Program-made: the position numbers and the translations under genes
The notes under the pieces: model-generated
What the model was told of the DNA's origin: nothing
Database searches by the model: none
The model's input: the letters and a program-made list of their open reading frames with translations, nothing else
DNA from: Chromatiales bacterium
Lineage (GTDB): Bacteria; Pseudomonadota; Gammaproteobacteria; RBG-16-57-12
DNA length: 48,437 bases
Direction: 5' to 3'
NCBI GenBank assembly: GCA_026989455.1
Contig: JALSJH010000106.1
Coordinates: 1-48,437, forward strand
Shown: in pieces, positions 45,360 to 48,437 of the stretch
Layout: each line of letters opens with the position of its first letter
How positions within the stretch are numbered: position 1 is the first letter of the stretch

Positions 45360-45677
45360 TTACACTTCACGAGGAGCGCGTGCCGCAAGCCGCGCCCGCA
45401 GCACATCGATCTCATCGAGCAACTCAAGTGTCAGAGCCGCACCCGGAAGATTAACACCCAGATCTCGTTGCAAGCGCTGAACTGTCCGAACACGCTGGAT
45501 ACAAGCCCCCGCAAAACGCCACCCAGCTCTCCCCTCCAGCGGCTCAATCACCCCCTCGGCCACCAGAGCCATCAACCACTCGGCATTAACACAACAGAGC
45601 TGACTTAACTCACTGAGTGATAACTCAAGCTCCTCCTCAACAACATAACCACTAAAGACATAGGATGTAACCGTCAT
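45360..45677 (-). CDS. cbpM: Chaperone modulator CbpM
   Basis: A 105-residue MerR-like helical protein. LSLSELSQLCCVNAEWLMALVAEGVIEP resembles a winged-helix recognition region, and the C-terminal half (RVRTVQRLQRDLGVNLPGAALTLELLDEIDVLRARL) is the CbpM helix bundle. CbpM binds the J-domain of CbpA and inhibits it. Its ATG follows the cbpA stop with no gap. Confidence 0.9.
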   Translation of the reverse strand: MTVTSYVFSGYVVEEELELSLSELSQLCCVNAEWLMALVAEGVIEPLEGRAGWRFAGACIQRVRTVQRLQRDLGVNLPGAALTLELLDEIDVLRARLAARAPREV

Positions 45678-46625
45678 CTAAACCCCCAGCGCAGCGCGTG
45701 GATTAAAGGCCATTTTTTGTGCCATTTCTCGATACAAGGCTTTCGCCTCATCACTCTCAGCAGGCGGCAATACCACCTGCAACACCACATAAAAATCACC
45801 AACCGACTTACCCGGAATACCCTTCCCCTTAAGACGCATCTTACCTCCAGAGCGTGAGCCAGGCGGAACCTTCAGTTCAACCTTACCATCTGGGGTTGGC
45901 ACACTAACCGTTGCGCCCAACGCCGCCTCCCAAGGTGCCACCGGCAGATCAAGATAGACATCACGCCCCTCCACCCGATAAAAAGAGTGTGGCTCAAACT
46001 CAATCTCAAGATAGAGATCCCCCGCCTTTCCCTGGCCAACACCCGCACCGCCCTGCCCAGACAATCGGATATGCTGCCCCTGATGCACCCCTTTCGGAAC
46101 CTTCACATTCAGCGTTCGGTTCTTTAGCTGTGGACGACCATCCGCCCCCAACTCTGTATGTCGCAGAGTAATCGTGCGGGTTGCCCCGTGGTAAGCATCT
46201 TCAAGATTAATAAACACCTTGGCATGGGTATCCTCCCCTCCCATACCGAAATGCTCACCCCCCGCTCGCCCCTGTGCCGCACCGGCACGGCCAAACAGTG
46301 ATTCAAAAAAATCACTAAACTGAGAAGCGTCACCATCCGTAAAGCCACCGCCACGAAACTCAAAGCCCTGATCCCACTCAGGGGGTGGCCGGAAATCCTG
46401 ACCTGACTTCCAATCCATCCCCAGCTGATCATAAGCAGCCCGCTTCTCAGGGTCTTTCAACACCTCATAAGCTTCACCGACGCTTTTAAAACGCTCCTCA
46501 GCATCAGGCTCTTTACTCACATCGGGGTGATATTTACGCGACAGCTTCCGATAAGCGCGCTTAATATCATCCTGAGTCGCCGTCCGCTCGACACCCATTA
46601 TTTTGTAATAATCTTTAAACTCCAA
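45678..46625 (-). CDS. cbpA: Curved DNA-binding protein CbpA (DnaJ-type co-chaperone)
   Basis: A 315-residue type II J-protein. The J domain covers 1-70 with HPD at 33-35, followed by a Gly/Phe-rich linker and two C-terminal beta-domains with [18 protein letters not shown]. No zinc fingers, which separates it from DnaJ. It stimulates DnaK and binds curved DNA. The start is TTG, five bases after AGGAGG. Operon with cbpM. Confidence 0.92.
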
Positions 46626-46679
46626 TGCCGCCTCCTATACAAAATAATCACCTTGCATAACACCACACTACCCACTCAG

Positions 46680-46800
46680 TTCTGACTAAGTCTCGCACAA
46701 CCTAGGTCGCTTTTTCTGCTACCTAAGTTACACATCAAGCCCCAAGAAAGCCCTGATTAAGTCTCGATAAATTTAGGCAAAGAGGAAATTGTTTTCATCT
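46680..46800 (+). repeat. Dispersed IS-like repeat, copies D and B
   Basis: 46683-46712 (CTGACTAAGTCTCG, then CCTAGG) and 46753-46800 (CTGATTAAGTCTCG, then AATTTAGGC and AGAGGAAA) are two degenerate relatives of the left part of copy A at 19635. The second runs directly into the group II intron remnant. With the intron they fill the 492-bp gap between cbpA and the DUF3800 gene. Confidence 0.6.
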
Positions 46801-46816
46801 ATTCCGAAATACGCAG

Positions 46817-47108
46817 TAATAGTCGCTCTATGGAAATACTGGCGATAGTGGCACCAAAGTAAGCAGCATAATGAGACTCGGCGCATAGGTCAGCGATTGC
46901 CTGTGGCATCACCAGCAAAGCCCCATGGCGTAGCTCAAAAACCCCCGGCATTCAGCAGACGTTATCTAACGACTACCTAAAATCTCAGGGGCTATATGCG
47001 TTACGTGATGAATGGATCAAGCTTCACCATGCTAAGTGAAGCGCCCTGTGCGGAGCCGCACGCAGGGTGTTGTGGGGGCTGAGGGCTAGAGACCCTTGGC
47101 TACCCGAT
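46817..47108 (+). mobile_element. 3' fragment of a group II intron
   Basis: The segment ends with the decayed end of an intron-encoded protein (stop at 47037-47039), then a 34-base domain V (47040-47073). Domain V starts AGC, has a CCCTG/CAGGG lower helix, a two-base CG bulge and a TGCG/CGCA upper helix. A domain VI hairpin follows (AGGG/CCCT) with a candidate branch-point A in GGCTACCC. The sequence ends CTACCCGAT at 47100-47108, a typical group II 3' boundary. The 5' part, with domains I-III and most of the protein, is gone; IS-like repeat B lies in its place. The 5' limit is approximate. Confidence 0.85.
46847..47039 (+). pseudogene. Group II intron reverse transcriptase/maturase, C-terminal remnant
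   Basis: Two frames together give a maturase (domain X) and C-terminal pattern. Frame one, 46847-46885, reads SGTKVSSIMRLGA. Frame two, 46881-47039, reads AHRSAIACGITSKAPWR, then SSKTPGIQQTLSNDYLKSQG, then LYALRDEWIKLHHAK and stop. The last part closely follows the 'PWR..K..GI.QALSN.YL..QGL..L...WI..H' ending of group II maturases. One frameshift near 46881-46885 and loss of everything upstream make it non-functional. Confidence 0.8.
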
Positions 47109-47117
47109 TGGGCATAT
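47109..47117 (-). other. Partial attC-like core at the end of the DUF3800 gene, split by the intron
   Basis: On the minus strand, right after the DUF3800 stop, the sequence reads ATATGCCCA and then enters the intron. GCCCA is the first five bases of an attC inverse core (RYYYAAC). On the plus strand the 3' exon starts TGGGC, the remainder of GTTGGGC split as GT/TGGGC. Short match, but position and orientation agree. Confidence 0.5.
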
Positions 47118-48242
47118 TTATTTTTCCATACCCTCAAGACGCCGTTCTTCATCTAATTTCTTTAGCTCCATTCCTTTTTTCATTTCATCATCTGTAGGTT
47201 CAGGAAGATTTTCGAACCATTCACCCCATCTGGATGCTAATGCATTTATTGAAATTTCATCTGTCATGCTTTTGGGTATTTGTTCATTTATGAAGGGATA
47301 TATTTCAATTGCGATTTCTTTTTCTTCAAGCATACGTTTAAATAGCCATAGATACACATCAACTATTTCTAAACCAGCGCTATCTTTACCTGATTTAAAT
47401 GAAAGCGGAATAGTTGGCATGTCTTTAAAGTCTATTTCAGGCATACCTGGCCCTAGGGTTGTTGATGGCGTATCTTTTACAGATGCACAAAACTCAGAGA
47501 ATGTTTTTTGACCCTTATTAAACTGAGATTGTTGATCTACGGTAATAATTGATGCGCTTTTATTATGCTTGTTTAATCTGGATGCAATTCCATGCATTAC
47601 AGATTGGAAGCCAATTAAATTCGGTGTTATAGATAATAGGTCTTTTTTTCTTTTAGCATTATAATAGATTTTAGAAGGATTATTTTGTGCCCAATTCAAT
47701 GCATCATAAATTAACGTTCTTGATCTTTCATCTGGAAGATCATCAACTCTGCCTTTTATAGCCTTACATACTTCAACTAATCCAGTATTAGCTTTTTCAT
47801 CATTTAATTCAATTCGAGAACTCCATGCTAGTTTAAGCATTTCCTCATCAAATAGTGATGCAAGATTTATAAGTAGTACATATCGTAATGGTGTCCAATA
47901 TCCAGACCATGTAATAGCTGGGTTTAGCCCTTGGTCAAAAACCTGATCAAAGAAACAAATTAAAGCATGATCTGCTTTCGCTATACTATATATATCAAAC
48001 GTTAGATCGTATTTTTTTTGTATATATATCAATCCATCAACAATTTTAACCAAGCCGCCATTACCTAACTCTGAAGCATGCAACCTTTGAACGCCAAGAC
48101 TTTGTCTTAAAGCAGAAAGTTCTTTTTCAGCTAGTGCATCAATATTAAATTTACTCGATAATACACCGTAATAAAGAATAGGCTGATTTTCATCAAAAAG
48201 ATTGGTTCCGGTATGACCGCTTTCATCTACGTGAAAATACAT
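47118..48242 (-). CDS. DUF3800 protein (RNase H-like fold), probable integron-cassette gene
   Basis: A 374-residue protein starting MYFHVDESGHTG. It has the DUF3800 pattern: D6-E-S-G, LHASEL with E58, a strand IITVDQQ with D236, and SAGLEIVDVYLWL with E292/D295. These acidic residues would form an RNase H-like metal site. DUF3800 proteins occur in phage, plasmid and accessory islands; function is not settled, though nuclease activity is a reasonable idea. AT-rich codon use differs visibly from neighbours. AGG lies seven bases before the ATG. A GTTAGGC core 18 bases before the ATG and a split core after the stop suggest a gene cassette. Confidence 0.82.
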   Translation of the reverse strand: MYFHVDESGHTGTNLFDENQPILYYGVLSSKFNIDALAEKELSALRQSLGVQRLHASELGNGGLVKIVDGLIYIQKKYDLTFDIYSIAKADHALICFFDQVFDQGLNPAITWSGYWTPLRYVLLINLASLFDEEMLKLAWSSRIELNDEKANTGLVEVCKAIKGRVDDLPDERSRTLIYDALNWAQNNPSKIYYNAKRKKDLLSITPNLIGFQSVMHGIASRLNKHNKSASIITVDQQSQFNKGQKTFSEFCASVKDTPSTTLGPGMPEIDFKDMPTIPLSFKSGKDSAGLEIVDVYLWLFKRMLEEKEIAIEIYPFINEQIPKSMTDEISINALASRWGEWFENLPEPTDDEMKKGMELKKLDEERRLEGMEK

Positions 48243-48260
48243 ATTTATACCTACTTAGCT

Positions 48261-48302
48261 GCCTAACGCTTAATCTACCCCAAAGTGGGGAGATATTCCG
48301 CA
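48261..48302 (-). other. attC-like 3' half-site upstream of DUF3800
   Basis: On the minus strand: GCGGAATATCTCCCC, ACTTT, GGGGTAGATTAAGC, then GTTAGGC (48267-48261). The hairpin CCCC/GGGG with ATCT/AGAT arms and the TTAAGC-GTTAGGC ending resemble the L'-R' end of an integron attC. No good RYYYAAC partner is seen on the far side, where repeat copy C begins, so the site looks truncated. Confidence 0.5.
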
Positions 48303-48375
48303 ACTCATGAATGTTTTATGCTGGCTGAAATCGCCCTCATTTATCCCGAAAACCGCACCCAGAGAGCGACTATTG
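48301..48375 (-). repeat. Dispersed IS-like repeat, copy C
   Basis: On the minus strand it contains AATAGTCGCTCT (shared with 46819-46830), then AGGGCGATTTCAGCCAGCAT, CATTCATGA and TTG (shared with the right end of copy A at 19684-19720). It is opposite in orientation to copies D and B, on the other side of the DUF3800 gene. Confidence 0.65.
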
Positions 48376-48437
48376 TATTTTTACTCTGACCTAGGATATT
48401 GGGGTATCAGGGATTTGATGTTTACTCACGTCGCCAG

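Follow-up and report, generated by a model that had tools for sequence, protein, structure and literature searches.

Probable remains of an integron gene cassette, with a DUF3800 gene and a truncated group II intron, at the end of a draft-genome contig

The window analyzed here is the whole of contig C106 (48437 bp), from a draft genome of 2.37 Mb in 116 contigs. Its right end carries cbpM/cbpA-like genes, a MITE-like repeat, the 3' end of a group II intron, an intact DUF3800 gene on the opposite strand and a second repeat half (Table 1). Two short motifs frame the DUF3800 gene. GTTAGGC stands exactly 18 nt upstream of the ATG, as had been claimed in an earlier, sequence-only reading of this DNA, and GCCCA was confirmed downstream, although 4 nt (ATAT) separate it from the stop codon, which it had been said to follow directly. 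A single gene is therefore found between cores of the forms GTTRRRY and RYYYAAC, the final AC of GCCCA/(AC) being presumed. GTTAGGC has a frequency of 6e-5 per strand position in the window, which corresponds to a chance of about 0.6% for a 100-nt leader. On a PWM built from 39 attC cores of the genus and family, the score of TGGGC, the plus-strand form of the downstream motif, is attained by only 5% of the window's T-starting 5-mers. The leader also shares the 11-mer TAGCTGCCTAA (window 48256-48266) with an intron 3' exon on contig C116 (L016, 1805-1815).

Table 1. Positions of features at the right end of the window
Feature	Position	Strand	Remarks
cbpM/cbpA-like genes	45360-46625	minus	right end of contig
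cbpA/DnaJ-like neighbor gene	45678-46625	minus	
MITE-like repeat, left part of ~165-bp interspersed repeat	46744-46831	plus	fused to intron RT coding region; 5' truncation breakpoint
5'-truncated group IIC-attC intron	46830-47108	plus	end of reverse transcriptase ORF plus domains V/VI
Intron domains V/VI	47039-47108	plus	Rfam RF00029, 49.3 bits, E 8.7e-7
Split R'' core GCCCA (GCCCA/AC, intron-interrupted) of the probable cassette's own attC	47109-47113	minus	TGGGC on plus strand
DUF3800 gene of the probable cassette, intact	47118-48242	minus	374 aa; PF12686 at 1e-6
R' core GTTAGGC, probable cassette start and end of upstream cassette's attC	48261-48267	minus	GCCTAAC on plus strand; same core in genus attC sites
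8-nt putative attC spacer GATTAAGC, last surviving piece of upstream attC	48268-48275	minus	from spacing in genus attC sites
Repeat half, related to MITE-like repeat	48276-48375	minus	replaces remainder of upstream attC

The intron lies antisense to the DUF3800 gene. Its 3' end, CTACCCGAT, stops at 47108 with TGGGC next, and the match to domains V/VI bears out the earlier placement of a plus-strand group II intron end at this junction. The preceding frame, ending in ..ITSKAPWRSSKTPGIQQTLSNDYLKSQGLYALRDEWIKLHHAK*, encodes a group II maturase C-terminus; indels precede this stretch, and its TGA stop is at 47037-47039. The 279-nt fragment is 82% identical (227/277 aligned positions) to the 3' end of the 1926-nt pIMP4_000369 intron, which in a class 1 integron separates catB3 from the remainder of its attC, antisense to the cassettes, with a 5' exon ending in TTGT and a 3' exon of TAGAC. 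In a second plasmid, a class 1 integron carries a related intron after aadA11, again antisense. Among solved structures, the intron-encoded protein (IEP) of pIMP4_000369 is best matched by the GsI-IIC RT (4e-142), and the RT C-terminus, queried as joined residues of relative L061 and the window, shows up to 85% identity. These similarities support the proposed grouping of the window intron, which keeps only the C-terminus of its RT, with known group IIC-attC introns. An RVT_1 search of the genome of the window found no RT. The published rule for group IIC-attC introns is insertion at TTGT/T, within R'' on the bottom strand of attC and in the orientation opposite to the cassette (PMC7923331). 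In the window the 3' side of this target, TGGGC, is present; the copy's own 5' exon is lost, and a GT before the split is presumed.

Many sites in this genome and in two congeners carry the same intron end, allowing the targeting to be examined across the genus. On the attC core PWM, 79% of 29 distinct intron 3' exons from three genus genomes score at least 2 bits, versus 7% of background T-starting 5-mers, and the mean score of the 29 was not reached in any of 20,000 resamplings. All eight 5' exons that were read end in TTGT, and several lie on attC hairpins (C38 and C134 of genome G001, both also found by the attC model described below). The 3' exon statistics of the intron family are the decisive evidence here; both the target rule and the antisense orientation fit, as had been argued earlier.

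An attC covariance model was built from nine sites, comprising hand-found genus sites and plasmid attC sites. It replaced a motif-pattern search that missed true sites, a regex/inverted-repeat finder that returned nothing above shuffles because it used GTTRRRY cores and the genus often uses GTTATGY, and a loosened finder that performed no better than shuffles. Among relatives, the model matched 32 sites in G001, six in G002 and three in G003; in the genome of the window it matched none at E <= 1 among the 150 of 260 first-look candidates that were scored. With filters off, 46600-48437 likewise yielded nothing credible. The sequence-only reading had offered such a scan as a check, and no attC was scored; both attC sites are truncated remnants rather than complete, foldable sites, so neither could score. 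On the left, the 5' part of the intron and the rest of the attC are gone, with the MITE-like repeat joined within the RT codons at a short shared motif. On the right, only GATTAAGC-GTTAGGC is left before the repeat half, the upstream attC having been cut 15 nt from its end. Given these truncations, the locus represents a relic rather than a mobilizable cassette. The absence of an integrase from view stands for contig C106, where no intI adjoins the cassette, but not for the genome, which has a full-length integron integrase gene on contig C108 (419 bits) and a partial one on C90 (345 bits), each at a contig end and unlinked to the DUF3800 locus. On contig C35 of the same genome, a divergent group II intron end was observed ~700 bp from an N-terminal integron integrase fragment (L059/L015, 166-235 and 931-1203).

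DUF3800 proteins have been described as nucleases with an RNase H fold, and the family has been connected with some CRISPR loci (PMC12669027, PMC10910872). Residues D5, E6, D235 and D294 are invariant across 19 aligned homologues. Its predicted structure is a confident model (pLDDT 86.9); a PDB fold search gave no significant match, a PDB sequence search returned none, and neither PADLOC nor NCBIfam has a family for it. The protein is probably an RNase H-fold nuclease, a putative role taken from the literature since the confident model found no significant structural neighbor. The homologue survey covered 24 loci from the genome collection. Homologues 60%, 59% and 53% identical, from SKS4.bin41, Chitinimonas taiwanensis and Alteromonas sp. 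KUL49, adjoin or lie between attC sites: in Alteromonas sp. KUL49 (L213) and C. taiwanensis (L201) the gene has an attC match on either side, and in SKS4.bin41 a match follows the gene and a weaker one precedes it. Homologues about 52-54% identical are common on enterobacterial and Vibrio plasmids, and the two plasmid homologues examined are not in cassettes. The genomic context of homologues, another check suggested beforehand, was thus cassette-like in three cases but not in those two; the DUF3800 family moves in several ways, of which cassettes are one.

The plasmid homologues outside cassettes would suit a different origin: a DUF3800 gene that was never a cassette, a transcription terminator or some other stem-loop downstream of it as the target of the intron, and a GTTAGGC present by chance. 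At least one genus copy does occupy a terminator-like hairpin: the copy on contig C1 of the same genome follows an apparent ordinary terminator (CAGCCGT..ACGGCTG, a T-run and GT). We consider this origin unlikely for the window, as the 3' exon TGGGC fits an attC core, GTTAGGC has attC-like spacing on the start side of the gene, 36 relatives yielded no DUF3800 gene of this type and the close homologues are cassettes. That DUF3800 is a cassette gene in other bacteria supports the relic integron cassette first proposed from the sequence.

The repeat halves on either side were also considered. The interspersed repeat, ~165 bp long and bounded by ends resembling AGGAAGCTCTGATTAAGTC / GACTTGATCAGAGCTTCC, is found at dozens of sites across this genome and G001, has no match in G002 and is probably a MITE. 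Its identification as attC itself was rejected on account of its MITE-like ends and the lack of core sites. The half at 48276-48375 is common to contig C49. With MITE-like halves on both sides of the cassette, and many contigs of this genome ending at repeats, the contig end could be an assembly chimera that wrongly joins an intron/cassette fragment to cbpA. This is very improbable: the intron fragment is 86-97% identical to other copies and is therefore not a collapsed repeat, and the cassette structure is independent of the cbpA join. No such cassette adjoins the orthologues of the cbpA/DnaJ-like gene in two congeners, in the sequence available. The far side of the insertion was sought by way of ubiB, which comes next in one relative, without success; ubiB of this genome is on contig C60.

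The locus is very probably what remains of an array of integron gene cassettes. The DUF3800 cassette would formerly have followed another cassette, and we infer its delivery by an integron integrase. The attC of the DUF3800 cassette would have been entered on its bottom strand, at GT/TGGGC, by a group IIC-attC intron lying antisense to the gene. MITE-like repeats would later have been the sites of deletions that removed ~85% of the intron with the rest of that attC, as well as most of the upstream attC, and left the DUF3800 gene as an immobile single cassette beside cbpA; the order of insertion and deletion given here is the one we infer. The cassette geometry, the identity of the intron, the truncations and attC targeting across the genus were demonstrated. 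The intI genes of the same genome and the attC arrays of congeners were counted in favor of this history. Counted against it were the lack of a complete attC in the window or in this assembly, of an integrase on contig C106 and of the intron 5' exon, and the two plasmid homologues outside cassettes.

Group IIC-attC introns have multiplied in the genus, with tens of matching pieces per genome in congeners, and occupy terminators as well as attC sites. Cassette formation by such introns is a described hypothesis (PMC7923331). Recombination between intron copies may scatter or assemble single-gene cassettes across the chromosome, a possibility that we find rather doubtful here. On contig C94 of the genome of the window, an ORF of 381 aa that has no Pfam family (L239, 5402-6622) lies between two intron pieces, one an intron 3' end and the other the 5' end of another copy on an attC-like hairpin; it appears to be a second cassette with a piece of intron on each side. 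On contig C20 of the congener G001, a full-length group II intron (L156, 1356-3340) is embedded in attC sequence and points the same way as the cassettes; a second copy is represented nearby by its 3' end (1-215). The full-length intron, with Rfam D1D4-2, has an RT unlike the IIC-attC type; IIB introns in integrons (PMC7923331) provide a comparison.

Half-sites together with an intron end thus allow a lone core-region gene to be recognized as a former integron cassette. With DUF3800, the genes carried as integron cassettes come to include a probable nuclease family, and a genus with proliferated group IIC-attC introns provides a natural data set on whether introns help to make or move cassettes. 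The window intron resembles those of class 1 integrons (S.ma.I2; pIMP4_000369) in its 3' end sequence, its TTGT/T target and its antisense position immediately after a cassette gene. Unlike them, it consists of the last 279 nt only, with a broken RT frame and no 5' exon. Group IIC-attC introns in integrons, including truncated ones in cassette arrays, have already been published (PMC7923331). The published truncated intron is likewise 5'-truncated, frameshifted and antisense to cassettes, but is located in an array with attC sites, whereas the window intron is beside a single isolated cassette without a complete attC. In gene family and cassette geometry the locus is similar to the DUF3800 integron/CALIN cassettes of Alteromonas sp. 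KUL49 and Chitinimonas taiwanensis, which differ in having a complete attC on both sides. All of its components are of known kinds, and the locus clearly exemplifies a phenomenon that is already known.
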